Source: a virus
Direction: 5' to 3' (one strand)
Virus record (IMG/VR): IMGVR_UViG_3300023116_003818
Coordinates: 1-28,850 of that record
DNA: 28,850 nt
Below are positions 5,907-26,355 of the stretch, piece by piece (position 1 is the stretch's first letter; every line of letters begins with the position of its first letter). The translations under genes and the position numbers were made by a program. The notes below the pieces were generated by a model that worked only from the letters and a program-made list of their open reading frames with translations, made no database searches and was not told where the DNA came from.

Positions 5907-5934
5907 GTAAAATATATGATACAAACAGGTGAAC

Positions 5935-8466
5935 ATGTCTAAATTCTATACATCAGTCGAACGCTTTATCAACGACATTCTAGTTCGTGGTTATGAAAAC
6001 GGCAGACCATTCCAACGCAAAGTCAAATTCAAGCCAACATTATATGTTCGTGCTCGTGATAACGCCACTCACAAATCATTGATTGGTGATGTGCCTCTCG
6101 GTGCTACTCGTTTCAATAGCATGATCGAAGCTCGTGATTTCATTACTCAATACAAAGATGTACATGGTTTCGATATCTGTGGCACTATGAATTACGTCAC
6201 TCAATTTATTCAAGAAGAATATCCTGGCGAGATCAATTTTGACATGTCTAAGATCAACATCTGTTCTTTTGACATCGAGGTTGATATCTCGAATGGATAT
6301 GCAGACATCAATACCGCTGACAAAGAAATCACTTCGATTGCATACAAATCTTCTAAGTCTAGTACATATCATCTTCTCGGTCGTAAAGATTTCGATAAGA
6401 CAAAAACAATTACAGGTATCAATCCAGACGATATATCGTTTATGAAGTTTGATACCGAGGTGGCACTGCTTGAAAGATTTATTCAGATCTGGCAGATGGA
6501 ATATCCCGAAGTTGTTACAGGTTGGAACGTCGAGTACTTCGACATCCAATATATTGTCACTCGAATCATTCGACTTATGGGTGAAGAAAAGGCTAAGAAG
6601 CTTTCGCCTTGGGGTCGTATCTCACCACACTCAATCACCAAATTTGGTAAAGAACAGAAATCATATATCATATCTGGCCTGACCATCATTGACTATATGG
6701 ATGCTTTCAAGAAGTTTGGTTACAAGTACGGTCCACAGGAATCTTATAAACTCGATCATATCGCCCATGTAGTACTCGGCGAGAAGAAATTGGACTACTC
6801 TGAATATGGAAATCTTAACGCACTTTATGAACAAAATCCTCAGTTATATCTTGATTATAACCTTAAGGATACTCAGCTCATTCAAAGAATGGAAGACGAA
6901 TCTGGACTTCTTTCGCTTGTACTTACTGTTGCTTATGGCGGTGGGGTTAACTTCAGCGATGCATTTGGTACAGTAGGAATTTGGGAAACAACAATATATC
7001 GCCGTTTGATGAAAGACAAAATTGTTCCACATCTTAAAGGTGGACCCGGCGAGCGAGCTGGTGAACTTGTCGGTGGTTATGTTAAAGATCCAAAAGTCGG
7101 CATGCATCCTTGGGTTGTATCGTTTGATTTGAACTCTCTGTATCCACACCTGATGCTACAATATAATCTATCTCCTGAAACTTATGTCGAAGGCGAACGT
7201 GAATATGTATCTCAAGAAATGGTACTCGACGGCTCATATCAAAACAAAACTGATTATGCAGTATGCGCAAACGGTGCATGTTTCCGTAAAGACAAACTCG
7301 GCATCATTCCTGAGATCATTGATGAATATTATAATCGTCGTTCTGGTATCAAGAAAGAAATGCTTGCAGTAGAACAAGCTATTGAGAATGAAACCGATCC
7401 TGCTAAGAAACGGCAACTTCAATCTCAACAAACACAGCTTCATAACAACCAGATGGCTATAAAAATTGCTATGAACTCTCTTTATGGCGCAACTGCTAAT
7501 ATCTACTTCCTCTACTATATTAACGATATGGCTGAAGCTATTACGACATCCGGTCAGCTTTCAATTCGTTATGCTCAAAAGTCCGTGAACGAGTATCTTA
7601 ACAAGATTCTCAAGACTGACGGTAAAGACTATATCATCTATATCGATACAGACAGTATCTATGTTGATTTTGGTCCTCTTGTTAAAGCTTCATTTGGTAC
7701 TGTTGACATCGATCGTAAGAAAGGTGAAGAATTCCTCGATAAGATCTGTAAGATGAAGATCGAGGAAGTAATCGAAAATGGTTATAAAGATCTTGCTTCG
7801 AAAATGGGTGCATATCGTCAAGCTATGGTAATGAAACGTGAAAAGATTACTGATAAGTCAGTATTCATTGCTAAGAAGCGTTACATCATGAATACTCTCA
7901 ACTCAGAAGGTGTTCATTATGAAACTCCAAAAATCTCTGTAACCGGCCTTGAATCTGTAAGATCATCAACACCGGAAGTCTGCCGTGATAAACTCAAAGA
8001 ATCGTTCAAGGTTATCATGAATGAAGGCGAAGAAGCAATCCAGCAATTCATTGCTCAATTCAAATCTGAGTTCTTTAATCTTCCACCAGAAGATGTTGGT
8101 CGTAACTCAGGTACTGATAACATCGAGAAGTATACAGTTCGTGGTACTTACAAGAAAGGTTGCCCAATGCATGTTCGTGGTTGCATCCTCTACAATAAGT
8201 ATCTCAAAGAAAATGGCCTGTCGAATCGTTATGAATCGATTACGTCAGGTGATAAGATTAAATTTGTATATCTCAAAGTACCGAATCCAATCAAAGAAAA
8301 TATCATATCGTTCCCAGCGGTTCTACCTAATGAATTCAATCTCAAACCGTATGTGGATTATGAAACTCAATTCAATAAAGTCTTCCTCAGTCCTCTTGAG
8401 TCTATTCTTGAAGCTCTCGGATGGTCTGCTGAGAAGACAAACACAATAGAGGATTTTTTCGCATGA
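5935..8466 (+). CDS. 43: Family B replicative DNA polymerase gp43
   Basis: This 843 aa B-family polymerase with 3'-5' exonuclease is slightly shorter than T4 gp43 (898 aa). The N-terminal [11 protein letters not shown] segment resembles T4. The exonuclease motifs are SFDIEVD (Asp113, Glu115), [13 protein letters not shown] and YNLKDTQLI. Polymerase motif A is SFDLNSLYP (Asp398), motif B is [10 protein letters not shown], and motif C is [10 protein letters not shown] (Asp571, Asp573). A KKRYIM motif follows. All catalytic carboxylates are present. The ATG at 5935 was preferred over a GTG two codons earlier because AGGTG lies at good distance. The next gene overlaps the stop by ATGA. Confidence 0.97.
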
Positions 8467-10654: not shown

Positions 10655-11620
10655 ATGGAACTACTCACATTGTGGAGCCTTGTCGGCTTCCTGCTTGCTG
10701 CATATGCGGTTATAGCGAACGATTCAGTGCAAACTCTCGGCACGTGGATGGCATCTAACAATGAGAGATTTAACTATAAAGTACTATGGGCAGCGGCTTC
10801 TGCTGTTCTTCTAGCAACACTCTGGTACGGTTGGAGTGTTAATGGTGGCGACATTAGTTATGGTCGTTTGAATAAGATCCCGTGGCAAGAAGTACAATGG
10901 TACCACGCCGCAGCACCAGCTATTCTTGTTGCTTTAACACGAATTGGTGTACCAGTTTCAACATCATTCTTAGTTCTATCAGTATTTGCTTCAACCTTTG
11001 TGTTGGAAAAAATGTTGATGAAATCTATTATGGGTTATGGCGTAGCAGCCTTATTTGCTTACGCAGTATGGTTTGCCATTAATAAGTTTGCTCATAAATG
11101 GTTTGATGAAACTCAACCAGTAAGTGAAGGCAATAAACGTTTTTGGCGGATTGCTCAGTGGGTTGCTACTGGCGGATTGTGGTGGACTTGGTTGTCACAT
11201 GACATGGCAAACATTGCGGTATTCCTCCCGCGTCAAGTACCTGTAGATCTTATGATTTTGATCTCATTTGTATTTGTCGGTGGTTTGTTCTTTATGTTTA
11301 GAGAACGTGGTGGTAAGATCCAACAAATCGTTTTGGAAAAACATAACACAAGATATGTTCGTTCAGCTACGTTGATTGACTTATTCTATTGGTTGTGTTT
11401 ATACTTCTTTAAAGAGCTAAACGATATTCCTATGAGTACAACTTGGGTATTCGTTGGTTTGCTAGCAGGTCGTGAACTTGCGATGGCTACATACTTTGGT
11501 AAGAAGAAAACAAAATCTGTATTTCCTCTTGTAGCGAAAGACTTTGGAAAGATGATGGTAGGACTTGGAGCTTCAGTTGCTCTTGTACTAATGGTACATT
11601 ACATTATCAATCCAGTGTGA
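10655..11620 (+). CDS. PiT-type inorganic phosphate permease-like membrane protein
   Basis: This 321 aa polytopic membrane protein shows the inverted duplication typical of PiT/PHO4 transporters. Each half has an Asn/His-Asp signature: ANDSVQTLGT at 21-30 and SHDMAN at 181-186. Each also has a Pro-x-Ser-Thr re-entrant signature: GVPVSTS at 98-104 and DIPMSTT at 257-263. About eight to ten hydrophobic segments are visible. PiT proteins import phosphate with Na+ or H+. The second half departs from the usual NDxxNA sequence. A good AAGGAG ribosome site precedes the ATG, and a second short hairpin (10618-10634) lies in the leader. Use during infection to support phosphate supply is inference. Confidence 0.7.
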   Translation: MELLTLWSLVGFLLAAYAVIANDSVQTLGTWMASNNERFNYKVLWAAASAVLLATLWYGWSVNGGDISYGRLNKIPWQEVQWYHAAAPAILVALTRIGVPVSTSFLVLSVFASTFVLEKMLMKSIMGYGVAALFAYAVWFAINKFAHKWFDETQPVSEGNKRFWRIAQWVATGGLWWTWLSHDMANIAVFLPRQVPVDLMILISFVFVGGLFFMFRERGGKIQQIVLEKHNTRYVRSATLIDLFYWLCLYFFKELNDIPMSTTWVFVGLLAGRELAMATYFGKKKTKSVFPLVAKDFGKMMVGLGASVALVLMVHYIINPV

Positions 11621-11655
11621 CATTTTTGTCAAGTAAAAAAATTTTACAGAAGGGG

Positions 11656-11684
11656 TTGACATTTAACTCCTTTTGTGTTATATA
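11656..11684 (+). promoter_or_regulatory. Sigma70-type promoter for the tmRNA gene
   Basis: TTGACA (11656-11661), 17 bp and TATATA (11679-11684). The predicted transcription start near 11691 coincides with the first part of the tmRNA acceptor piece. Confidence 0.8.
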
Positions 11685-11690
11685 TAAGAA

Positions 11691-11752
11691 GTGGACGTTG
11701 AAACAAAATAAAAACGGATCGGACCGCGGGGCAGTACCGCGCACCTCCACCA
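11691..11752 (+). ncRNA. ssrA: tmRNA acceptor piece (3' half, circularly permuted gene)
   Basis: This segment ends CACCTCC-A-CCA (11742-11752). CACCTCC pairs along all 7 bp with GGGGGTG at 11920-11926, with a G-U pair at the third position, the alanyl-tRNA synthetase identity element. Directly before it is a 5-bp T-stem, CGCGG/CCGCG (11725-11729 with 11737-11741), closing a 7-nt loop GGCAGTA that differs from the usual TTCRANY. The 3' half lies upstream of the 5' half, so the gene is circularly permuted as in alphaproteobacterial two-piece tmRNA. The 5' end is estimated from the promoter. Confidence 0.88.
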
Positions 11753-11770
11753 TAAACACATGAGGATATA

Positions 11771-11902
11771 ATGAATTGGGATTGGCACTGGATTAGTTGG
11801 TTTAAAGGAACACCTTTTCAATGGGGTGATTTTAGATTCAATAGTGGCAAGCCATATAAAAGTTATAGACTTGGACCATTACTTATTCGTGTGTTTATGT
11901 AA
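11771..11902 (+). CDS. 43-aa ORF in the tmRNA intervening segment
   Basis: An ATG with a GAGG ribosome site 5-6 nt upstream opens 43 codons within the spacer that joins the two tmRNA halves. The product begins MNWDWHWISWFKGTPFQWGD and is rich in Trp, Phe and Tyr, with a basic C-terminal half. If translated, the ORF would be read from the tmRNA precursor before processing. Small size makes chance possible, but the ribosome site and lack of stops argue for a gene. Confidence 0.5.
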   Translation: MNWDWHWISWFKGTPFQWGDFRFNSGKPYKSYRLGPLLIRVFM

Positions 11903-11919
11903 GCACATGTGTTTATGAT

Positions 11920-12090
11920 GGGGGTGAACAAGGATCGACGGACGGAATAGTTGAGTGGAGTTCACCGTGTTGACCTACGTTATTCGGTCAAACAAACTAA
12001 ATGCAAACGATAACTTTGCACCATCTGGTTACGCACTAGCTGCATAACACAGGGGGCTGGCCACTTGCCTAGCAACAGAAAAGTGGCACA
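11920..12090 (+). ncRNA. ssrA: tmRNA coding piece with proteolysis tag
   Basis: It starts GGGGGTG (acceptor-stem strand) and continues with GGATCGACGG, close to the conserved GGATTCGACGG of tmRNA. A 6-bp TTGACC/GGTCAA helix (11970-11975 with 11986-11991) fits the region of pseudoknot 1. The resume codon GCA is at 12003, and the tag frame runs to TAA at 12045-12047, giving ANDNFAPSGYALAA. The ALAA end is the classical ClpXP/ClpAP signal. Downstream, GCCACTT/AAGTGGC (12060-12066 with 12081-12087) forms a 3' helix. The RNA rescues stalled ribosomes and tags their products. The 3' end is approximate, and I could not resolve the helix joining the two pieces by eye. Confidence 0.9.
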
Positions 12091-12126: not shown

Positions 12127-12906
12127 ATGTTTAATAAACTACTAATTACAACAGCATTGGTCTGCGCAGCAGGCTCAGCAATGGCCGCAGACGTTGGCGG
12201 TGAAATTACAACTGAGATTGCAGAAAACGCAGCAGGCAACTGGGGTGCAACAACATCCTTCGACCTAGGTATCGCATCAATGGGTACAGCAGTACCTGCA
12301 TTTGCTGCTATTGATTTGGACATGAACACAGACGGTGATATTACCCTTGATGAATGGCAAATTGGTACAGTAGTAAATGGAGATGCAATGATCTCATTCG
12401 GAGATCAAGGTAATGTTTGGATCGATTCAGAAGACGGTTCAACATTGGCAGATCCAGCCATGAAAGAATCTATTGCAGTTAAAGCCCTTGGAGCAAAAAT
12501 GGGTATTAGCTGGAAAGATATCGAAGCGGATGTAACAGAAATCGAAACAGTAGCCGGTATGTACGAAATGAATCTTGGTCTTGTTAATCTACAAGCCGCA
12601 GGTTCATACAACATGGTTACTGAAAACTTTGCGATTGGTTCTCGCAGTGATTATCTGTTGAACGACAATATTGGTCTTGGTGCTGCAATCACTTATGATT
12701 CAGGATCAGAAGATATTGGTTTTGAAGTAGATGCTGGCGCTTACGGTGCTACAGTATTCGTAAACGGCGATCAGGATGAAATGCTTCAAAACGTAGGTGG
12801 TTCTTACACTTACGGCTTCATCGGGCTTGAGCTCGAAGCAGGAGCGTCATACAACCTAGACAGCGAAGAATTGACACCTACTGCATCTGTTTCGTTCAGC
12901 TTCTAA
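12127..12906 (+). CDS. Exported outer-membrane beta-barrel (porin-like) protein
   Basis: This 259 aa protein has a clear signal peptide (MFNKLLITTALVCAAGSAMA, predicted cleavage after residue 20). The mature part alternates polar and hydrophobic residues in many short strands and ends in ASVSFSF; a C-terminal Phe is the outer-membrane insertion signal. It resembles small alphaproteobacterial porin-like barrels. Residues 65-76 match the EF-hand loop pattern (DMNTDGDITLDE) and may bind Ca2+. It follows the tmRNA without an obvious promoter of its own and ends at a strong hairpin. Possible roles are surface change, superinfection exclusion or nutrient entry; none is shown. Confidence 0.75.
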   Translation: MFNKLLITTALVCAAGSAMAADVGGEITTEIAENAAGNWGATTSFDLGIASMGTAVPAFAAIDLDMNTDGDITLDEWQIGTVVNGDAMISFGDQGNVWIDSEDGSTLADPAMKESIAVKALGAKMGISWKDIEADVTEIETVAGMYEMNLGLVNLQAAGSYNMVTENFAIGSRSDYLLNDNIGLGAAITYDSGSEDIGFEVDAGAYGATVFVNGDQDEMLQNVGGSYTYGFIGLELEAGASYNLDSEELTPTASVSFSF

Positions 12907-13006: not shown

Positions 13007-13558
13007 ATGTCACTAAAATTGAAAGAGCTTACATGGGCTCACCACCAATCTGCTGAACGGCGTAAGTTCGCTAAACATCTTATTAGCGGCAAAATTGAGC
13101 CTAAACTCTATCACAAATTTTTATGTTGCCAGTACTTAAACTATGAAGCACTGGAATCTAAAGTAATCATTCCCCCAAATTTACAACCAATTAAAAGGTC
13201 CAATCGCATTTGGACTGATATTCGTGAGCTTGAAAACGAATATGGATTAGAGCCAGATGGTAACTATCCGCCTTCTGTAGAGAAGTACACCAATCATATA
13301 CATGCACTTGCGGAGTGGGATGCTAACGACAGACTGTTGGCTCATATGTACGTAAGACATTTTGGTGAACTACATGGCGGGCAGATCATCAAAAAGAAAG
13401 TGCCTGGCTCAGGCAAGATGTATGAGTTTGAAGGAGATACTAAGATCCTTATTGAGGAATTCCGCAAACTCTTGCATGATGATATGGCAGATGAAGCTAA
13501 GATCTGTTTTGACTTTGCATCAGAGTTATTTGATGAGTTGTCTGAAGAAATTAGTTGA
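13007..13558 (+). CDS. ho1: Heme oxygenase (HO-1 family)
   Basis: This 183 aa all-helical protein should cleave heme to biliverdin IXalpha, CO and Fe2+ using reduced ferredoxin or another reductant. The proximal heme ligand is expected at His13 in HHQSAE (family pattern HxxAE). The distal helix motif is GELHGGQ at 120-126, against GDLSGGQ in HO-1, so the catalytic Asp is replaced by Glu121. A GGAGG ribosome site sets the start at 13007, and a late promoter lies upstream. It is shorter than typical HO (about 230 aa). Together with the bilin reductase at 13936 it forms a heme-to-bilin pathway. Confidence 0.9.
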   Translation: MSLKLKELTWAHHQSAERRKFAKHLISGKIEPKLYHKFLCCQYLNYEALESKVIIPPNLQPIKRSNRIWTDIRELENEYGLEPDGNYPPSVEKYTNHIHALAEWDANDRLLAHMYVRHFGELHGGQIIKKKVPGSGKMYEFEGDTKILIEEFRKLLHDDMADEAKICFDFASELFDELSEEIS

Positions 13559-13582
13559 CATTTACCCATATCTTGATATAAT
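13555..13582 (+). promoter_or_regulatory. Sigma70-type promoter for the bilin reductase operon
   Basis: TTGACA (13555-13560) overlaps the heme oxygenase stop codon. A perfect TATAAT (13577-13582) follows after 16 bp. It would give the downstream operon early expression apart from heme oxygenase. Confidence 0.75.
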
Positions 13583-13617
13583 ATAATTGTTAATAGCCAA
13601 ACGTAGGAGGTATCCTT

Positions 13618-13788
13618 ATGCATAAAGAAGTTGCATTCGAAGAAGTAGCCACTAAACCACTTACACGTCAATTTCGAATGGGTAAGAGTGAATCTGCTAG
13701 AAAGCGACGAAGATCCTTGAAAGAGGTTCGTGAAACTAGGCTAATGAATACTTTTGCAAAAGCACGTAGAGCAAGAAAGCGTAAATAA
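13618..13788 (+). CDS. Small basic protein (56 aa)
   Basis: GTAGGAGG precedes the ATG at ideal distance, and a strong promoter lies 35 nt upstream. The product has an acidic N-terminus and an Arg/Lys-rich second half (ARKRRRSLKEVRE and KARRARKRK), consistent with nucleic-acid binding. Its TAATG overlap couples it to the AbrB-like gene. Family not recognised. Confidence 0.7.
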   Translation: MHKEVAFEEVATKPLTRQFRMGKSESARKRRRSLKEVRETRLMNTFAKARRARKRK

Positions 13789-13964
13789 TGGAAACTTTAA
13801 CTGTTCACGAAGATCCCCAATCCGGGGATCTTTACTTACAATTCACAGACGATCTTCTAGAAAAATTAGGATGGGAACCAGGTGACAGCCTTGCTTGGAT
13901 TGATAACGAGGACGGAACTTGGACACTAACAAAGCATGACACATCCACTATGGAAGAGACTTAA
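13788..13964 (+). CDS. AbrB/MazE-like small protein
   Basis: This 58 aa protein has a swapped-hairpin pattern: YLQFTDDLLEKLGWEPGD, then a turn and WIDNEDGTWTLTK. That resembles the C-terminal part of SpoVT/AbrB or MazE-type domains (L-x-x-L-G-W-x-x-G-D). Such proteins are usually DNA-binding dimers. It overlaps the bilin reductase start by 29 nt. Assignment rests on this short pattern only. Confidence 0.6.
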   Translation: METLTVHEDPQSGDLYLQFTDDLLEKLGWEPGDSLAWIDNEDGTWTLTKHDTSTMEET

Positions 13965-14622
13965 TCAGTACTCTGATTTTATATTTAATCAATTTGATGA
14001 GCACTTCGAGCGCTGGGACAATCCTAGTTACACCGAAGATATGCACTTCAAAGGTTGGACCGATACCTTTTGGCATTCCGATGAAGTGTATAAAGCTCAT
14101 CTAAAAACAATCATTCCTGAAGATGGCAAGGGCCTCTGGTTGATGCACGTTAACGTGTTCCCAGAGAGATACATTGAACTGCCTATCTTAGGATTTGATA
14201 TTGTAGCGGGGCCAAGAAAGATCACCGGATCTTTTATGGACTATAGTCCTTTACATGGAGTTCCGCACCCTTACTTAGATTTTATGGCTCGAACAGTAGA
14301 AGGATTGGAGTGGAACAAACAAAGAGAACTTCCACCTTGGGCGCAAGAAATATTTTCAGAAAACATGATCGCCGTTGGTAACATAAACACCGACGAAGAA
14401 TTAGATCAGTTTATAGATGTAACTTCACAACTTCTAGAACACTATTTAGAAAACTTAGAAGCTAACGCGTTTGCGTCACATCGAGATACTTTACCAGCAC
14501 TAAACAAATACTGCAAGAACCAAAAAATGAATCCTCACTTGCACAGATCTATCGAAGCTATGGGCATATCAAAAGCCGATAAAAATCGATACGTCGACAA
14601 TGTTTTATTTGAGGAAAGATAA
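13936..14622 (+). CDS. pcyX: Ferredoxin-dependent bilin reductase (PcyA/PcyX-like)
   Basis: This 228 aa protein has the core of the ferredoxin-dependent bilin reductase family. The segment LPILGFDIVAG followed by ITGSFMDYSPL matches the PcyA core. His71 and Asp88 are spaced by 17 residues, exactly like the catalytic His88 and Asp105 of Synechocystis PcyA. The position of PcyA Glu76 (HLE), needed for D-ring vinyl reduction, reads HLK here. The ELPPWAQEIFS segment is also family-like. The product is therefore likely not phycocyanobilin. A phage enzyme of this kind, PcyX, has been described from marine metagenomes as making phycoerythrobilin; the symbol is given by analogy. No ferredoxin gene is visible in the window. 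Confidence 0.85.
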   Translation: MTHPLWKRLNQYSDFIFNQFDEHFERWDNPSYTEDMHFKGWTDTFWHSDEVYKAHLKTIIPEDGKGLWLMHVNVFPERYIELPILGFDIVAGPRKITGSFMDYSPLHGVPHPYLDFMARTVEGLEWNKQRELPPWAQEIFSENMIAVGNINTDEELDQFIDVTSQLLEHYLENLEANAFASHRDTLPALNKYCKNQKMNPHLHRSIEAMGISKADKNRYVDNVLFEER

Positions 14623-14978: not shown

Positions 14979-15623
14979 ATGGCTTTCTTAGTTCACCCTT
15001 TGCCACCTGTTAATGTTTATGTACGAAAAGAATACTTGTATGATTTAGAGAAGGGGCACGGTGAATATACTCCAGGAATCTGGATTAGTGTTAAAAGCAC
15101 AATGCACAAAGCTCTTTATTTCGAAACACTCTTAACTGATTATGGAGCGCTATATGACAAACTTCCTATATCGGCATTTGTTTGGAAAATACCGCACGGC
15201 GAGATTCTTCCGCTTGATGTGCTACAGCTTTGGGATTGTTTTGATTACGACATTACCGTTGTCCAAAAACCCATCTTGTCTAGATGTGAATTTTTTGGAA
15301 AGGACAAACGTATGCATGCCGGTGAGTATGAGTTCACCATCGATAATTGTCACCGCGATTCTTCCATCATCGACACAAATTTCAGTGAACACGACCCCGA
15401 ACACAAGTCTTTCAACGTTATACGACTTGACAACGGTCAATTCGCTGCTCAGCCTAACAATCGGGTTATCTGGCGTGATAGCTCCTTAACTCCTGATAAA
15501 CTATTACGTCCTGACTTTAAAGTATGCACTCAAAACTATGCGGTTGAAACAGAACCTAAATGGTCTGTTGGCCACACTGATGAATGGCAATATAAAACTA
15601 AGGAAGAAAGCGAAATGGAATGA
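14979..15623 (+). CDS. Conserved hypothetical marine phage protein
   Basis: This 214 aa protein starts MAFLVHPLPPVNVYVRKEYL, a beginning I associate with conserved hypothetical proteins of T4-like cyanophages. It contains several short strands and a WKIPHGEILPLDVLQLWDCF segment. No catalytic motif is recognised. It overlaps the IscA-like gene by ATGA. Confidence 0.75.
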   Translation: MAFLVHPLPPVNVYVRKEYLYDLEKGHGEYTPGIWISVKSTMHKALYFETLLTDYGALYDKLPISAFVWKIPHGEILPLDVLQLWDCFDYDITVVQKPILSRCEFFGKDKRMHAGEYEFTIDNCHRDSSIIDTNFSEHDPEHKSFNVIRLDNGQFAAQPNNRVIWRDSSLTPDKLLRPDFKVCTQNYAVETEPKWSVGHTDEWQYKTKEESEME

Positions 15624-15904
15624 TATTAACTATTACGGAAAATGCTAAAGCTTATCTAAAAAAGGTTGGCAAACCTAACGTATCACTTACGGTAAAAGGT
15701 GGAGGCTGTTCTGGTTTTCAATATGAGTGGGGAACCACGGAAGAAAGTCCAACTATTGAAAATTTATGGTTAGATCCAATGGCTGAAATGTTTGTTTTTG
15801 GCTGCACAATAGATTATGTGGAAGAGCTTGGTGGTTCTTATTTAAAAGTAATTAACCCTAATGCCACTGCTTCATGTGGCTGCGGAGAAAGTTTTGCTGT
15901 CTAG
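15620..15904 (+). CDS. IscA/SufA-type Fe-S cluster carrier
   Basis: This 94 aa A-type carrier has the three conserved cysteines in GGGCSGF (Cys30) and SCGCGESF (Cys86, Cys88). Such proteins bind Fe-S clusters and deliver them to apo-proteins. It is a little shorter than bacterial IscA (about 107 aa). It sits downstream of heme oxygenase and the bilin reductase; both pathways touch iron and ferredoxin, so a shared role is possible but not shown. Confidence 0.9.
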   Translation: MILTITENAKAYLKKVGKPNVSLTVKGGGCSGFQYEWGTTEESPTIENLWLDPMAEMFVFGCTIDYVEELGGSYLKVINPNATASCGCGESFAV

Positions 15905-16445: not shown

Positions 16446-16678
16446 TGATTACACCAAGAACTCCTGAAAAAGTGCATCATGATATATCAGAGATGCTAGC
16501 GCGCGGTGTTAACTATATTGACGCTTTAGTAGAATACGCGCGTCAAAATGAATTAGAAATTGAAACAGTCGCAGATATTGTAAAGAAGTCTTCTATTCTA
16601 AAAGAGAAGGTTCGCAGTGAAGCGATTGGCTTGAGAATGGTTAAACAAGATGATCAAACACTCGACGAGTTTTGCTAA
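16445..16678 (+). CDS. 33: gp33-like late-transcription coactivator
   Basis: This 77 aa helical protein has the pattern YIDALVEYARQNELEIETVADIV, then LKEKVRSEAIGLRMV. The pattern is shared with the short late-transcription coactivators of marine T4-like phages. T4 gp33 (112 aa) bridges RNA polymerase and the gp45 clamp at late promoters. Position before gene 59 and gene 32 agrees with T4 gene order. It overlaps gene 59 by 29 nt. Confidence 0.8.
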   Translation: MITPRTPEKVHHDISEMLARGVNYIDALVEYARQNELEIETVADIVKKSSILKEKVRSEAIGLRMVKQDDQTLDEFC

Positions 16679-17249
16679 CGAAGAGTCGTTTAAGTATTAT
16701 GTGATGTTCTTGGCAATGAAGAAACACTTCGGCAGCCAATACGACTATCACAAATATCATGGGAAAATCAAGGCTTCTTTTGACAAGTTTCGTACTAGTC
16801 AGTATGCATACTTCTTTGAGAAGCTTTCCCATAAAGAAGATCCTGAGAATCTCATACTTGCAAACATGATTGTAAAGCCTGACGTTTGGATACGTGAGAT
16901 TCTGGATGATGAAGGTGAGGAACGTTATTTGCAATGGAAGATTAAGATGAATTCTATGAGCCGTCTTTTCAAAGCAGATCTAGAAAAACTAGATGATAAC
17001 TACCAAGCCAACTTTGCTGTACATAACGGTCAACATCCTTATGTAATGACTCTGTACAGCCAAAAGCAGATATCACTTGAAACTTTTACTATACTTACTC
17101 ACATGGCTAATATTTTTGGCTATTGGGAGCAAAATATAGTTGACAAAATCATAGCAAGTGATATAATAAAACTATCAAAGAAGTACAAACCTTTTTTGAA
17201 TCTCAACGAAAAAAAGTTGAAAGACCTTGTCAGAAATCGGTTTTTCTGA
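16650..17249 (+). CDS. 59: gp59 helicase loader
   Basis: This 199 aa protein (T4 gp59 is 217 aa) loads the gp41 helicase onto gp32-coated forks. It shows the gp59 pattern KYYVMFLAMKKHFGSQYDYHKY near the N-terminus, then AYFFEKLSHK and ILANMIVKPDVWI, and a helical C-terminal domain ending in a basic tail. The start at 16650 (MIKHSTSF) lies within the end of gene 33. A promoter and a late promoter for gene 32 are embedded at its end. Confidence 0.88.
   Translation: MIKHSTSFANEESFKYYVMFLAMKKHFGSQYDYHKYHGKIKASFDKFRTSQYAYFFEKLSHKEDPENLILANMIVKPDVWIREILDDEGEERYLQWKIKMNSMSRLFKADLEKLDDNYQANFAVHNGQHPYVMTLYSQKQISLETFTILTHMANIFGYWEQNIVDKIIASDIIKLSKKYKPFLNLNEKKLKDLVRNRFF
17140..17167 (+). promoter_or_regulatory. 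Sigma70-type promoter for gene 32
   Basis: Perfect TTGACA (17140-17145) and TATAAT (17162-17167) with a 16 bp spacer lie inside the end of gene 59, upstream of gene 32. Confidence 0.7.
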
Positions 17250-17257
17250 TATAAATA
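17250..17257 (+). promoter_or_regulatory. T4-type late promoter for gene 32
   Basis: Exact TATAAATA immediately after the gene 59 stop codon. Together with the sigma70 promoter it would keep gene 32 expressed throughout infection, as in T4. Confidence 0.75.
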
Positions 17258-17280
17258 TATGGTCGGTCCGCCGATACATA
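17258..17280 (+). promoter_or_regulatory. Hairpin in gene 32 leader, possible autoregulatory site
   Basis: TATG-g-TCGG-tccg-CCGA-ta-CATA folds into a broken stem, followed by about 30 nt of unstructured A-rich leader before the AAGGAG site. T4 gene 32 mRNA uses a structured element upstream of an unstructured stretch for gp32 self-repression; this leader has the same layout. Confidence 0.4.
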
Positions 17281-17324
17281 TTTCGCAATACAAACATACA
17301 ACGCAATATTAAGGAGATACGCAT

Positions 17325-18248
17325 ATGTCATTTGATGCACTCAAAAAAAATCGTTCAAGCTCACTTCAGAAATTGAACGCCCAGCTCGAAAAAGTATCAC
17401 AGAAGAGCTACTCAGATCCCAACGAAGGTAAATTTTGGAAACCAACCCGCGATCAAGCTGGTAATGGTTTTGCTATTATTCGCTTCTTGCCTGCTCCAGC
17501 CGGCGAGGAAATGCCATTCGTTCGTATCTGGGATCACGGTTTCCAAGGTCCAACAGGCTTATGGTATATTGAGAACTCTCTAACTACCATTAATCAAGAT
17601 GATCCAGTATCAGAATACAACTCAAAGTTGTGGAATTCTGGTCTTGATTCAGATAAAGAAATTGCTCGTAAGCAGAAGCGCCGTCTAAAGTACGTTGCAA
17701 ATATCATGGTCATTAAAGACTCTGGTAATCCTGCTAACGAAGGTAAAGTCTTCATGTATCAATTTGGTAAGAAGATCTTCGACAAACTAAACGATCTAAT
17801 GAATCCACAGTTTGAAGATGAGGATCCAGTAAACCCATTTGATCTATGGGAAGGTGCTAACTTCCGTCTGAAGATTCGTCAGTTTGAAGGCTATCCAAAC
17901 TATGATAAGTCTGAGTTTGATGCTCCTTCAGCATTGTCTACAGATGATGCAGAACTGGAACGTATCTATAACCAAGAGCATTCTTTGCAAGAATTGATTG
18001 ATCCTAAGAACTTCAAGTCTTATGCAGAGTTGAAAGCAAAACTTTATCGTGTACTTGCTCTCGATGAAGAGCCTTCCACGCCAACTACTGCTGAAGATGA
18101 TGATGAGTTTGATCTAAGCAGCATGGGTAATACCCAACAAGCTGCGCCCCAGCCAACTATGCCAGCTGCGGCACCAGAACCAGCGTCTAATCTATCTATG
18201 GATGATGACGACGATCTATCAATCTTTAAGGAACTAGCGAATGGCTAA
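17325..18248 (+). CDS. 32: gp32 single-stranded DNA-binding protein
   Basis: This 307 aa protein (T4 gp32 is 301 aa) coats single-stranded DNA and organises the replisome. The basic N-terminal region (FDALKKNRSSSLQKLNAQLE) resembles the T4 cooperativity domain. The OB core begins at FWKPTRDQAGNGFAIIRFLP, and the C-terminus is an acidic tail (MDDDDDLSIFKELANG) that recruits partners. The protein contains no cysteine, and where T4 has zinc ligands in CPVC it reads DPVS (93-96). A good SD precedes it. Confidence 0.95.
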   Translation: MSFDALKKNRSSSLQKLNAQLEKVSQKSYSDPNEGKFWKPTRDQAGNGFAIIRFLPAPAGEEMPFVRIWDHGFQGPTGLWYIENSLTTINQDDPVSEYNSKLWNSGLDSDKEIARKQKRRLKYVANIMVIKDSGNPANEGKVFMYQFGKKIFDKLNDLMNPQFEDEDPVNPFDLWEGANFRLKIRQFEGYPNYDKSEFDAPSALSTDDAELERIYNQEHSLQELIDPKNFKSYAELKAKLYRVLALDEEPSTPTTAEDDDEFDLSSMGNTQQAAPQPTMPAAAPEPASNLSMDDDDDLSIFKELANG

Positions 18249-18567
18249 TAAAACCTACGAAGAGGTTTTAGATTTCGACTTCGGCTTCAGCTTCATTGAT
18301 GAAGAGCTTCAAGAAAAAGAAGCTGCGGCCGAAGAAACTATTCAGAACATCAGCTCTGAAAAGCAATCACTGGAGGACCAACTCACAGATGCTAAAGTCA
18401 AAGCTGATGATCTGGAGTATCGACTCGAACTCCTCTATAAATCAATTACTCCGTTCTTAACAAACCTTTGTAAGAATCCGGATAAATCAACAATCTATTG
18501 GCCTGATCGAGTTGGAAAGATCGAGGCCTATAAGGCTAAATTGCTTACAATCGTGGAAGGTACATAA
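18241..18567 (+). CDS. Coiled-coil protein between gp32 and UvsX
   Basis: This 108 aa acidic protein has a central coiled coil (about residues 20-65, EELQEKEAAAEETIQNISSE onward). It overlaps gene 32 by 8 nt and uvsX by 1 nt. A protein of this type occupies the same place in marine T4-like phages. Function unknown; an accessory role with gp32 or UvsX is inferred from position. Confidence 0.75.
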   Translation: MANKTYEEVLDFDFGFSFIDEELQEKEAAAEETIQNISSEKQSLEDQLTDAKVKADDLEYRLELLYKSITPFLTNLCKNPDKSTIYWPDRVGKIEAYKAKLLTIVEGT

Positions 18568-19643
18568 TGAGTCTACTAGACAAACTTGTAAAAAATAGTA
18601 CCATCAAGATGACTGCACCGATTACTGATTCTAAAGTATTCGGTAAGAAAGAAATGGCACCGACACCAGTTCCTATGGTAAACGTTGCACTATCTGGTAG
18701 CATCGATGGAGGATTAACGCCAGGTCTCCTTGTCCTGGCTGGTCCGTCAAAACACTTCAAATCTGCTTTTGCTCTACTTATGGCAGCAGCATATTTGAAA
18801 AAGAACCCTGATGCGGTTCTTCTATTCTATGACTCAGAGTTTGGTACTCCTACCTCATACTTTGAGTCTTTCGGCATTGATATGGATCGTACTGTACACA
18901 CCCCGATTACCAATGTTGAAGAACTAAAATTTGATATTGTTCAGCAAATGGATAATATTGACAAGGGCGACAAGGTTGTTGTCGTTATTGATTCGGTAGG
19001 TAACCTCGCATCTAAGAAAGAAGTGGAAGACGCACTCGATGGTAAGTCTGTTGCTGATATGTCTCGTGCGAAAGCTCTTAAATCTTTGTTCCGGATTGTT
19101 ACGCCACATCTTAACCTTAAAGACATTCCTCTTATCGCTGTTAACCACACCTACAAAGAGATTGGTCTATTCCCTAAAGATGTTGTGTCTGGTGGTACTG
19201 GCATTTATTATAGTGCTGATTCTATTTGGATTATTGGTCGTCAACAAGATAAGGTTGGCACTGAGATTCAAGGCTACCACTTCGTAATCAATATCGAGAA
19301 ATCTCGTCATGTAAAAGAAAAATCTAAGATTCCAATTAGTGTTTCTTGGGACGGCGGTATCGTCAAGTGGTCAGGCTTGATGGAGATCGCTGAAAAAGGT
19401 GGGTACATAACCAAACCCAAAGTAGGCTGGTATGAAGCCATCGATCCAGCCACGGGTGAAGTTTTATCAGAAAAACTGCTTCGAGCAAAAGAAATTGTTG
19501 ACAATTCTCAGTTTTGGGATATGATATTTAATAAGACAGACTTTGCAAATTATGTGAAGAATGCTTTCTCTGTCGGAGGCAGTATTATTATTCCAGATGA
19601 AGACAACAATGAAGTGCTAGAAGAAGTGGTTGAGAATGATTGA
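18567..19643 (+). CDS. uvsX: UvsX RecA-like recombinase
   Basis: This 358 aa strand-exchange protein (T4 UvsX is 391 aa) catalyses homologous pairing. Walker A is GPSKHFKS at 59-66, the T4-type variant. The acidic switch LLFYDSEFGTP, Walker B VVVIDSVGNLAS and loop 2 region AVNHTYKEIGLF are present in order. The start overlaps the preceding stop by one base. It works with gp32 and with gp46/47 products. Confidence 0.95.
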   Translation: MSLLDKLVKNSTIKMTAPITDSKVFGKKEMAPTPVPMVNVALSGSIDGGLTPGLLVLAGPSKHFKSAFALLMAAAYLKKNPDAVLLFYDSEFGTPTSYFESFGIDMDRTVHTPITNVEELKFDIVQQMDNIDKGDKVVVVIDSVGNLASKKEVEDALDGKSVADMSRAKALKSLFRIVTPHLNLKDIPLIAVNHTYKEIGLFPKDVVSGGTGIYYSADSIWIIGRQQDKVGTEIQGYHFVINIEKSRHVKEKSKIPISVSWDGGIVKWSGLMEIAEKGGYITKPKVGWYEAIDPATGEVLSEKLLRAKEIVDNSQFWDMIFNKTDFANYVKNAFSVGGSIIIPDEDNNEVLEEVVEND

Positions 19644-21057
19644 AAAGACGGTACTATCACACCTAATATTTAATGAAGACTATTATCGCAGAGTGTTCCC
19701 CTACATCAAAGGGGAATACTTTGATGATAACAACTTGAAAAAGATATTTGCAACATATTCAGATTATGTAGCAGATTACAAAGAGCCTCCTTCTATCGAG
19801 GCTCTTAAAATTACTTTAGATAAACGTAAAGATCTCAATGAAGATTCATATAAACAGGTGATGTCTACTGTTGATGATTTATCCGTTGACAAAGCAACTG
19901 ATATCGATTGGCTTGTATCTGAAACCGAAAAGTTCTGTCAGGATAAGGATCTATTCAACTCGATTCGTAAAGCCATCTTAGTTATTGATGGCGAAGATAA
20001 AGAAATGGATAAGGGTGCGTTGCCAGAACTCTTATCGAATTCTTTGTCTATCAGTTTCGATACATCGATCGGCCACGACTTCCTTGATGATGCAGATTCT
20101 CGTTATGACTTCTATCATCGTAAAGAAGAACGTCTGCCGTTTGATATCGAACTTCTAAACAAAGTTACCAAGGGTGGCTTACCCCGCAAATCTATGTCTG
20201 TTCTCCTTGCTACTACCGGCGGTGGTAAGTCACTCGTTAAATGTCATATGGCAGCAAACTATCTTACACAGGGTAAGAATGTCGTTTATATCACTATGGA
20301 AATGGCTGAAGAACGCATCTCAGAACGCATCGATGCTAACCTGATGGATGTAACTCTTGACGATCTCAAGATCATGCCACGAGATGTTTATCAAAAGCGT
20401 ATTGAACGTATTACATCTAAATCGCCCGGCAAACTTATCGTTAAAGAATATCCAACAGGCTCGGCTCATGCCGGACACTTCAGACATCTACTCAATGAAC
20501 TCAAAATGAAACGAGGATTTGTTCCTGATGTTGTCTTTATCGATTACCTTAACATTTGTGCTTCAGCTCGCGTTAAAGGTGCTGCTGCAGCAAATAGTTA
20601 CACATTAGTAAAATCAATCGCGGAGGAAATACGTGGACTGGCTATGGAGTTTAATTGTGCAATTGTTACTAGCTCTCAGTTTAATCGTGATGGTTACGGT
20701 AATTCTGATGTTGATCTTACAAATACCTCCGAATCAATGGGTATCACTCATACTGCAGACTGTATTCTTGGATTGATATCATCAGAAGAACTAGATAATC
20801 TTGGCCAACTTATGATTAAGCAGCTTAAGAATCGCTGGGGCGATCTTGGTTATTATCGTCGATTCGTTGTAGGTATTGATCGTGCTAAAATGCAAATCTA
20901 TGATCTAGAACCTGGAGCTCAGCAAACTATAAGTAGGGATACAGCTCAAGTTGCTAATTCATCGCCAAGAAGTGTACTTGATCTGAAACCAGATGATGAT
21001 ATGCCAGTATTCGATAAAGGTAAGAAGAAACTTTTTGCAGCAGGAGATTTCACATGA
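19636..21057 (+). CDS. 41: gp41 replicative helicase
   Basis: This 473 aa DnaB-family helicase (T4 gp41 is 475 aa) unwinds the fork and works with primase. The N-terminus, MIEKTVLSHLIFNEDYYRRV, matches T4 (ILSHLIF). Walker A is TTGGGKS at 193-199, then YITMEMAEERISERIDANLM, Walker B VVFIDYLNIC and SSQFNRDGYGN. The ATG at 19636 overlaps the uvsX end by 8 nt; an upstream TTG at 19630 is less likely. Confidence 0.95.
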   Translation: MIEKTVLSHLIFNEDYYRRVFPYIKGEYFDDNNLKKIFATYSDYVADYKEPPSIEALKITLDKRKDLNEDSYKQVMSTVDDLSVDKATDIDWLVSETEKFCQDKDLFNSIRKAILVIDGEDKEMDKGALPELLSNSLSISFDTSIGHDFLDDADSRYDFYHRKEERLPFDIELLNKVTKGGLPRKSMSVLLATTGGGKSLVKCHMAANYLTQGKNVVYITMEMAEERISERIDANLMDVTLDDLKIMPRDVYQKRIERITSKSPGKLIVKEYPTGSAHAGHFRHLLNELKMKRGFVPDVVFIDYLNICASARVKGAAAANSYTLVKSIAEEIRGLAMEFNCAIVTSSQFNRDGYGNSDVDLTNTSESMGITHTADCILGLISSEELDNLGQLMIKQLKNRWGDLGYYRRFVVGIDRAKMQIYDLEPGAQQTISRDTAQVANSSPRSVLDLKPDDDMPVFDKGKKKLFAAGDFT

Positions 21058-24294: not shown

Positions 24295-24942
24295 ATGTAC
24301 ATACCTAAATTTAATTCTTATTTCATTCATATACCTAAGTGTGGTGGTTCTTCTATAGAGCAATACTTCTTTAATCTAGATGGACTATATCCTAATATGG
24401 AAAACGTATTTGGATCTCTTGGTAGGGAAGTAGGAAGTAAGTATCATTTTGGTAATTATGTACGTGGACTTCAACATTCAGAAACTCAGCATCTGAGTGT
24501 ATGGGATTGCAGAAGATATCAAGTAAACGATTTTTTAAACTCAAATTATAAGTTTGCTTTTGTAAGAAATCCTTGGCATCGATTTGTATCCGAGGTTCAT
24601 TGGAAAAGAAAGCATTTGCGCATGACAAATCACTCATTCCAGGATCAAATAGAAATGCAAAAGCGTTTCGCCGATAATAACCTAAGCAACAATCTTAGGC
24701 CTCACAACACTCCCCAATGGAAATTTGTATTCAATGAAGAAGGTAAGCTTGCCGTTGATGACGTATTCAAATTAGAAGAAATAGATAAAGCTGAAAAGAG
24801 ACTATCAGAGGTATTCGGGGTAGAAGTAAAATTTCCGCATGTAAATAAAACAGAAAAGAAAAATTACGAAATCGATCAAGGAATAAAAAATCAACTTCTT
24901 CCTTTGATCAAAACAGATTTGGAGGTATTCGGATATGAATAA
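24295..24942 (+). CDS. Sulfotransferase-family protein
   Basis: This 215 aa protein has the two PAPS-binding signatures: the 5'-phosphosulfate loop FIHIPKCGGSS at 10-20 and the 3'-phosphate segment FVRNPWHRFVSEV starting at Phe89. Such enzymes move sulfate from PAPS to sugars or other acceptors. It is the first gene of a three-gene block with two glycosyltransferases (8 nt overlap), suggesting modification of a glycan. The target, host surface or virion, is unknown. Confidence 0.85.
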   Translation: MYIPKFNSYFIHIPKCGGSSIEQYFFNLDGLYPNMENVFGSLGREVGSKYHFGNYVRGLQHSETQHLSVWDCRRYQVNDFLNSNYKFAFVRNPWHRFVSEVHWKRKHLRMTNHSFQDQIEMQKRFADNNLSNNLRPHNTPQWKFVFNEEGKLAVDDVFKLEEIDKAEKRLSEVFGVEVKFPHVNKTEKKNYEIDQGIKNQLLPLIKTDLEVFGYE

Positions 24943-25636
24943 AACTATCTGGATGTACTGGCACGACGGGTTTGAAAACTCACCAGCAATTACTCAAGAA
25001 TGTTTAAAGAGTTGGAAGAAATGGAATCCTGATTATGAAGTGGTTGAATTGAATAATGAAAATTTAAAAGATTATATTGATTATCCAATTGCTCAGCCAA
25101 AATCGCTAGCAGCAAGATCTGATATTATAAGAATTAATTTACTTAAAGAGCACGGTGGTATCTGGTCAGATGCTACCGTTTTATGTAATAGGCCGTTGAA
25201 GGAATGGGTGCATATGTATGATAAACAAGGATTCTGGGCCTTCTCAGATCCTACACCAGCCAATATGATATGCAGTTGGTTTCTCGTAGGTGATAAAGAT
25301 AACCATATAGTTAAAACCTTCTGTGATGAAGTCAATAAATATTGGGACAACGGTAGACAAAAGCCAGATGTGTATCTTTGGTTTCATGGTATATTCGATC
25401 ATCTATTTCATGTTGATCCGATATTTAAAGATCAATGGGTACTAGCTTCTAAGTATAAAGCTAACTGGCAGCCAATGGCAAAGGATGGAACAAATCCACA
25501 TTACTTTGCACCTTATATAAAGGAAAGATTAGATCAACTACCATTTAAAGACATGACGGCTCCTCTTTACAAATTAACAAGAGGCCAGTCTAATATGTTA
25601 ATGAACAACAAACTGATAAAGGGATTATTGATATGA
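24935..25636 (+). CDS. Capsular-polysaccharide-type glycosyltransferase
   Basis: This 233 aa protein begins with an IWMYWHDGFENSP segment. The catalytic region is ARSDIIRINLLKEHGGIWSDAT (Gly74 onward, Asp79), the capsular polysaccharide synthesis/GT32-like pattern in which the WSDAT acidic residue binds metal-nucleotide sugar. It overlaps both neighbours by a few bases. Substrate unknown. Confidence 0.8.
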   Translation: MNKTIWMYWHDGFENSPAITQECLKSWKKWNPDYEVVELNNENLKDYIDYPIAQPKSLAARSDIIRINLLKEHGGIWSDATVLCNRPLKEWVHMYDKQGFWAFSDPTPANMICSWFLVGDKDNHIVKTFCDEVNKYWDNGRQKPDVYLWFHGIFDHLFHVDPIFKDQWVLASKYKANWQPMAKDGTNPHYFAPYIKERLDQLPFKDMTAPLYKLTRGQSNMLMNNKLIKGLLI

Positions 25637-26355
25637 AGGTTGAAAAGACCTATATTGTGAGAATTGACACCGAGATGTCAAAACGTTACGCAGCAGATAC
25701 TGCAAAGTCGTGTGACAATCTCGGTATTGAATGGGAATATTATGATGGCTATAACGTAAGAACTGGCCAGCAAGAAATCTATCAATGGCAAAACTTTGCA
25801 GAGACTGCAGGAGTTAGAGTTGAAAAAGTAAAACGCATGCAGCCAGGCGCTGCCGGTTGCACTATGAGCCATCTTGCTTTGTGGAAAAAGATTGCTGATA
25901 ATCATGAATGTGCTGTAATCTTAGAACATGATGCTATAATGCTTCATCCATTGACATTGGATATTCCAGATGGTAAGATTATCCATATGGGTTATAAGTA
26001 TCCAGACTATGAAAAATATAATGCGAAGGTAGCTGGTCCTCCCAAACGTATTGTTGATATGGCGTTTGCTCCTGGTTCTCATGCCTATGCACTTACTTGG
26101 AGAACTGCTCAGAAACTCGTACAAGATTGTGAGAGGGAAGGTATTACAGAAGCAATTGATAATCGACACTTTATGCATACAAGAGCAAACTATACAAAGG
26201 TTCCTATTGCTATGACTGATCCAATTTGTGCTATGGGATGGTTAAGAGATTCTACTATCTGGGGTAGAAGTGCAATTCATAACAACACTGGTCAAATGTT
26301 AGAATCATTCAAGACCAACTTTGCGGCATCGGTAATGCCTCATGATTATAAATAG
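25633..26355 (+). CDS. Glycosyltransferase family 25-like protein
   Basis: This 240 aa protein has the GT25/LPS-type signatures GCTMSHLALWKKI (from Gly75) and AVILEHDA (Glu98-Asp100), then PGSHAYALTWRTAQKLV. GT25 enzymes transfer galactose or related sugars in LPS and glycan synthesis. The last codons TAT-AAA-TAG form a late promoter for the next gene. Confidence 0.82.
   Translation: MKVEKTYIVRIDTEMSKRYAADTAKSCDNLGIEWEYYDGYNVRTGQQEIYQWQNFAETAGVRVEKVKRMQPGAAGCTMSHLALWKKIADNHECAVILEHDAIMLHPLTLDIPDGKIIHMGYKYPDYEKYNAKVAGPPKRIVDMAFAPGSHAYALTWRTAQKLVQDCEREGITEAIDNRHFMHTRANYTKVPIAMTDPICAMGWLRDSTIWGRSAIHNNTGQMLESFKTNFAASVMPHDYK
26347..26354 (+). promoter_or_regulatory. Late promoter built into the GT25 stop
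   Basis: Exact TATAAATA across the Tyr-Lys-stop codons, 34 nt upstream of the long final ORF. Confidence 0.75.

Follow-up and report, generated by a model that had tools for sequence, protein, structure and literature searches.

Why should phages of bacteria that are probably not photosynthetic carry genes for turning heme into a bilin, and which bilin would those genes make? The question is raised by IMG/VR virus record IMGVR_UViG_3300023116_003818, whose 28,850 bases (the window) encode a heme oxygenase (HO) and a ferredoxin-dependent bilin reductase (FDBR) within a T4-like replication region. The pair as such is already known from phages and is not new. In Pelagibacter phage Mosig EXVC030M, which was grown on SAR11, the HO gene overlaps a PcyX-type FDBR gene next to the neck genes (PMC7892664), and Wegner et al. 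(2024; PMC11480375) describe hemO/pcyA-X/alaS cassettes in marine and freshwater phages, the purpose of which is discussed as unknown. Both precede the window, which a preliminary description had presented as giving a phage PcyX gene its genomic setting.

Genomic setting of the HO and FDBR genes

Gene calls and Pfam searches place the window in the replication region of a T4-like phage. It includes UvsW (24-1514), gp43 (5929-8466) and gp47/gp46, the latter three named from sequence and gene order, as well as a gp55-like sigma factor, MazG-type proteins, a late-transcription coactivator and a DUF1127 protein (Pfam, E 2.2e-9). The genomic position of the HO/FDBR cassette is fixed by the replication core downstream of it on the plus strand (16650..21057), which consists of gp59 (from 16650), gp32 (17325), UvsX (18567) and gp41 (19630); these assignments are based on PHROG 269, the Pfam gp32 profile and synteny in relatives, with UvsX and gp41 named from sequence and order. 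Farther along, sulfotransferase-like, capsule-synthesis-like and LPS glycosyltransferase-like genes stand in a row (24295-26355) and are possibly concerned with surface modification.

The HO gene (13007..13558, plus strand) encodes 183 amino acids matching Pfam PF01126, Heme_oxygenase (E 2.4e-22, 80 bits), and the FDBR gene (13936..14622, plus strand) encodes 228 amino acids matching PF05996, Fe_bilin_red (E 8.4e-15, 55.5 bits vs. a cut-off of 31 bits). They are not adjacent. Two small plus-strand open reading frames lie between them, one for a small basic protein conserved in the lineage (13618..13788; in 70 of 94 loci) and one for a small MazE/AbrB-like protein (13788..13964; at this place in 45 of 94 loci), the end of which overlaps the FDBR start and which matches Pfam MazE weakly, below the cut-off (E 0.0055). 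Directly upstream of HO, an open reading frame on the same strand (12127..12906) encodes an outer-membrane-like protein with a signal peptide; profile searches of Pfam and PHROGs gave no family match for it, and homologues at 39-96% identity lie upstream of HO in many relatives. The block that holds HO and FDBR also encodes an A-type Fe-S carrier (IscA/HesB-like; 15620..15904, plus strand; Pfam Fe-S_biosyn, E 2e-11) and a protein that weakly matches a PagP-like PHROG.

One further gene (14979..15623, plus strand) encodes a conserved protein of marine T4-like phages (phrog_3704, E 2.4e-102); its cyanophage homologues, at up to ~80% identity, carry the labels hypothetical, PurM or ferredoxin. 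We rejected it as an electron donor for the reductase, given that it has neither a ferredoxin domain nor a Pfam match; the name "ferredoxin" in PHROGs looks wrong for this family.

A viral reductase clade with an invariant lysine

Profile and fold agree on the FDBR family. Among solved structures the best match by sequence is 5owg, a PcyX (E 1.5e-37), and an AlphaFold2 model (mean pLDDT 94.7) has the FDBR fold, with Foldseek matches to PcyA (E 5e-13), PcyX (E 7e-10), PebB, PebA and phytochromobilin synthase, the first three on top. The GFDIVAG motif, His71 and Asp88 are present as the preliminary description had read them. Its label "PcyA-like" is inexact, for Glu76 is missing as well. In the alignment, His55 corresponds to PcyA His74, Lys57 to PcyA Glu76 and PcyX Asp55, His71 to His88, Asp88 to Asp105, Asn199 to Asn219, and Tyr219 to Tyr238. 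All of these PcyA residues apart from Glu76 are kept in the Lys57 FDBRs (PcyX has Phe at the Tyr238 place), and the central catalytic aspartate, Asp88, is found in 47 of 47 clade sequences. The PcyA triad Glu76-His88-Asp105 thus reads Lys57-His71-Asp88 in the window. PcyA cannot do without any of the three, and the first proton is believed to come from Glu76 (PMC9800206). The acid at this position has been linked to D-ring/C15 chemistry and, in FDBRs of this lineage, tied to PCB (Glu) vs. PEB (Asp) production.

The lysine, which the preliminary description did not mention, is invariant. A scan for relatives of the window FDBR gave 147 contigs, the best 80 of which are 69-100% identical to it, and Lys57 occurs in all 47 distinct clade sequences, in an alignment made unambiguous by the flanking H55-L-x motif. 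At the same place, Mosig-type FDBRs have Asp (64 of 64 distinct sequences), and cyanobacterial and cyanophage PcyA have Glu in all compared. A third scan, of other viral FDBRs (80 contigs), yielded Asp in 75 and Glu in 5. Sampling that was independent of the reductase, by a UvsX-seeded search, again gave Lys, in 13 of 13 FDBRs including a deep member (L337) at 47% identity.

Two small groups of sequences deserve separate mention. The Glu-bearing viral FDBRs are a subgroup comprising five of the six sequences L313-L318 (L313, L314, L315, L316 and L318). According to Wegner et al. (2024; PMC11480375), the enzymes of phage CB_2 are active and its FDBR makes PCB, which is explained there by the absence of the PcyX-specific Asp55; by analogy, the Glu subgroup may make PCB as well. 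Among the 13 UvsX-seeded reductases, a Lys57-clade fragment at a contig edge (L349:2-574) has D88N along with other active-site changes and is perhaps decaying.

In trees, the lysine FDBRs form one branch (99/97; 96/83 with L337 included) that is sister to all PcyX-type sequences, and PcyA lies far outside. The window reductase therefore cannot be called a PcyX, as had been suggested: it falls outside that clade and, like all 47 members of its own, has Lys57 instead of the catalytic Asp55. It could still be a PcyX in all but one residue, with Lys57 taking over the proton-donor role and phycoerythrobilin remaining the product. After all, the clade has PcyX as its sister group, no solved structure is closer in sequence than that of PcyX, and the two have Trp68, Phe87 and most of the fold in common. 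We consider this unlikely, given the position of the clade outside PcyX and the fact that Lys57, Asn73, Met101 and Tyr219 are all invariant within it and differ from nearly every PcyX-type sequence compared (the exception within the clade is Met101, which is Phe in L337).

Some of the FDBRs were found in MAGs (Rhodobacteraceae Water_Bin34, Bacteroidetes UBA4009), and their ownership by the bacterial host was rejected because the contigs carry T4 core genes. A PcyX-type FDBR, together with HO and an amidase-like gene, also occurs among phage-like neighbors on a 335-kb contig that was assigned to a Neomarinimicrobiota MAG (L178) and is perhaps a very large phage. On the sequence evidence, the Lys57 branch would be a widespread, virus-only FDBR type of predicted function. 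This clade appears to be new, as does its lysine in place of a presumed product-steering acid, CB_2 having been compared by its description only; the clade may already stand, as "PcyX," in the supplementary tree of Wegner et al. (2024; PMC11480375).

Retention of the pair and a third gene in the lineage

HO and FDBR are a fixed possession of one phage lineage. Among UvsX-seeded contigs reaching at least 6 kb upstream, both genes occupy the same place in 9 of 9 with a UvsX identity of at least 80%, and in 0 of 16 with an identity of 75% or less. Divergence of the FDBR correlates with that of gp32 (rho 0.47) and not significantly with that of UvsX or gp59; as this result is mixed, we argue for vertical inheritance from the conserved position instead. 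Carriage on plasmids was rejected, as a search gave no match. Both genes are under purifying selection, with median dN/dS values in the lineage of 0.115 (HO) and 0.132 (FDBR), for which the phage's own UvsX, gp32 and gp43 provide a yardstick of 0.08-0.10.

The HO itself has the proximal histidine, in AHHQSAE, and the distal-helix glycine motif, GELHGGQ, both of which had been reported in the preliminary description, and it can be aligned to human HO-2 (E 3.4e-11). By profile and by these two motifs it is an HO of the HO-1 type, except that Glu stands where HO-1 has Asp140. Glu is found there in 74 of the 78 HOs of the lineage. This substitution counts against simply assuming that the enzyme is active, and HO activity is here a prediction. 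On two contigs the gene has been swapped for a distant HO (38% identity, motif GDLSGGQ) at the same locus, with the Lys57 FDBR kept (L336:4317-4856, L392:4689-5228). HO was thus replaced, not lost, and a biliverdin source was retained with the reductase, a pattern that would be expected of a functional pair. These replaced HOs and that of L337 have Asp at the Asp140 place, and since they combine it with Lys57, a coupling between the two substitutions was rejected.

Of 13 longer records, 5 contain a third gene of tetrapyrrole metabolism, for 5-aminolevulinate synthase (AlaS; TIGR01821, over the cut-off), which lies 25-30 kb downstream from the FDBR. The other eight stop less than 21 kb downstream, so that AlaS is present in 5 of 5 cases where the contig reaches. 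On four contigs (L163, L165, L166, L167) the immediate upstream gene resembles, by inspection, a ribonucleotide reductase subunit. The window ends 14 kb downstream of the FDBR, and AlaS is expected in its own phage from these relatives.

AlaS bears on another possible role of the pair, in iron release or in heme removal, with a reductase that merely disposes of biliverdin and a product that is irrelevant. Such a role would suit oligotrophic marine hosts, has been discussed in the literature as regards iron, and would agree with the Fe-S carrier gene nearby. However, the same phages carry a gene feeding heme synthesis, and the HO is replaced rather than lost while a specialized reductase stays, so we regard this role as improbable and flux to a reduced bilin, not only iron release, as the likelier purpose. 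Retention of HO, FDBR and AlaS through the lineage speaks against simple iron release and sharpens the question of why viruses of non-photosynthetic bacteria would make bilins. Far less probable for the FDBR is a role as a bilin-binding protein without catalytic activity; the catalytic acid is Lys in all members, but His71, Asp88, Asn199 and Tyr219 are all kept and dN/dS is ~0.13.

Host and missing partners

A phage-borne, permuted tmRNA of the alphaproteobacterial type (11652..12090, plus strand; ARAGORN; Rfam RF01849 alpha_tmRNA, 105.7 bits) encodes the tag ANDNFAPSGYALAA. It is kept at the same place in relatives with changing tags (ANDNFAPSGYALAA, ANDNYKPSGFALAA, ANENFAPSGLALAA), which indicates that tmRNA and phage evolve together. 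The window also encodes a transporter-like membrane protein (10655-11620; low-confidence structure model, pLDDT 40) that is 83-95% conserved in the lineage and missing from all cultured phages. It has no Pfam match, no homologue in 50,697 phage records, and homologues at 61-63% on large contigs of some alphaproteobacterial genomes. Several contigs of the lineage were binned with one Rhodobacteraceae MAG. None of these three lines is proof, yet each backs an alphaproteobacterial host, which is also what the preliminary description had read from the tmRNA and DUF1127, both confirmed here. No FDBR match was found in 382 of 385 alphaproteobacterial genomes. The hosts are probably non-photosynthetic marine bacteria.

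That the window comes from a cyanophage, with HO and FDBR serving phycobilisome pigments, was rejected as scarcely credible: its T4-like core genes, with ~45% identity to cyanophage DNA polymerase, and a neighboring gene up to ~80% identical to cyanophage proteins would allow it, but the tmRNA is alphaproteobacterial-type, the core genes lie outside the cyanophage cluster (UvsW is no closer to cyanophages than to Methylophilales and Sinorhizobium phages), and the FDBR falls outside the cyanophage PcyA clade. The phage is T4-like and its host probably non-cyanobacterial, as had been proposed.

Possible partners were surveyed in 13 fragmentary records of the lineage (about 698 kb), which contained no Fer2 ferredoxin, GAF domain, phycobiliprotein, psbA or other PSII reaction-centre gene, or ferrochelatase. 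This upholds the reported lack of photosynthesis genes, and the suggested search for bilin-binding GAF domains or ferredoxin came back empty in these records. With no Fer2 ferredoxin in these records, the electron donor is probably a host ferredoxin. No bilin acceptor protein was found in them either, which counts against the pathway proposed below.

Proposed pathway and product

On balance we lean slightly toward a functional route from heme to a phytobilin other than PCB, perhaps phytochromobilin. In this phage-encoded branch of tetrapyrrole metabolism, HO would cleave heme of the host, yielding biliverdin IXalpha, CO and iron, and the FDBR, with electrons from host ferredoxin, would reduce the A ring of biliverdin and leave the 18-vinyl group as it is; AlaS, encoded at another place in the same phages, would feed heme synthesis. 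Phytochromobilin would be the most likely product, PEB or a dihydrobiliverdin less likely and PCB unlikely. Pre-PcyA enzymes without Glu76 and His88 make phytochromobilin, and one also makes PEB (PMC10151467). As Glu76 is also considered the proton donor of the first PcyA step, PCB would not be expected from the Lys57 enzymes, and the first guess is phytochromobilin. A product call from one residue is weak, however, since pre-PcyA, unlike the window FDBR, also lacks His88. The buried lysine could itself be a proton donor, and the products of FDBRs are not reliably predictable (PMC13193486).

A more specific proposal, which we advance tentatively and would put somewhat below an even chance, is that the FDBRs with Lys57 are a type of their own, in which the lysine leads the reaction to another outcome; they might, for example, be viral phytochromobilin synthases. 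This type would be kept by an entire T4-like phage lineage that infects non-photosynthetic bacteria and encodes AlaS as well. If true, a virus would drive the conversion of glycine and succinyl-CoA into a plant-type bilin in hosts that make none themselves. As a large viral clade of natural origin in which the lysine is invariant, these FDBRs also offer a ready test of product choice in the family and may yield a new bilin enzyme.

Comparison with known systems

The closest counterparts are PcyX (5owg) and the Mosig FDBR, likewise viral, paired with HO in T4-like phages of alphaproteobacteria and of the same fold, at ~32% identity to the window FDBR with the central Asp and His kept. Compared with PcyX, the window enzyme has Lys57 for Asp55, Tyr219 for Phe, Asn73 for Cys and Met101 for His, and belongs to a separate clade. 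The gene arrangement also differs from that of Mosig, where HO and FDBR overlap and lie at the neck genes, whereas in the window two small genes separate them and the cassette sits at gp59-gp32-UvsX.

PcyA is the closest fold by Foldseek and shares the equivalents of His74, His88, Asp105, Asn219 and Tyr238, but the window FDBR is only ~25-30% identical to it, with Lys for Glu76 and Trp for Asp/Gln in the pocket strand. The pre-PcyA enzymes (PMC10151467) resemble it in lacking the Glu76 acid and in occurring outside phototrophs; they are bacterial, whereas the window FDBR is viral and keeps the His88 equivalent. The HO/PcyA-X/AlaS cassettes of Wegner et al. (2024; PMC11480375), including that of CB_2, likewise bring the three functions together in one phage genome, and the lineage of the window differs from them in that its AlaS gene lies 25-30 kb from the FDBR.
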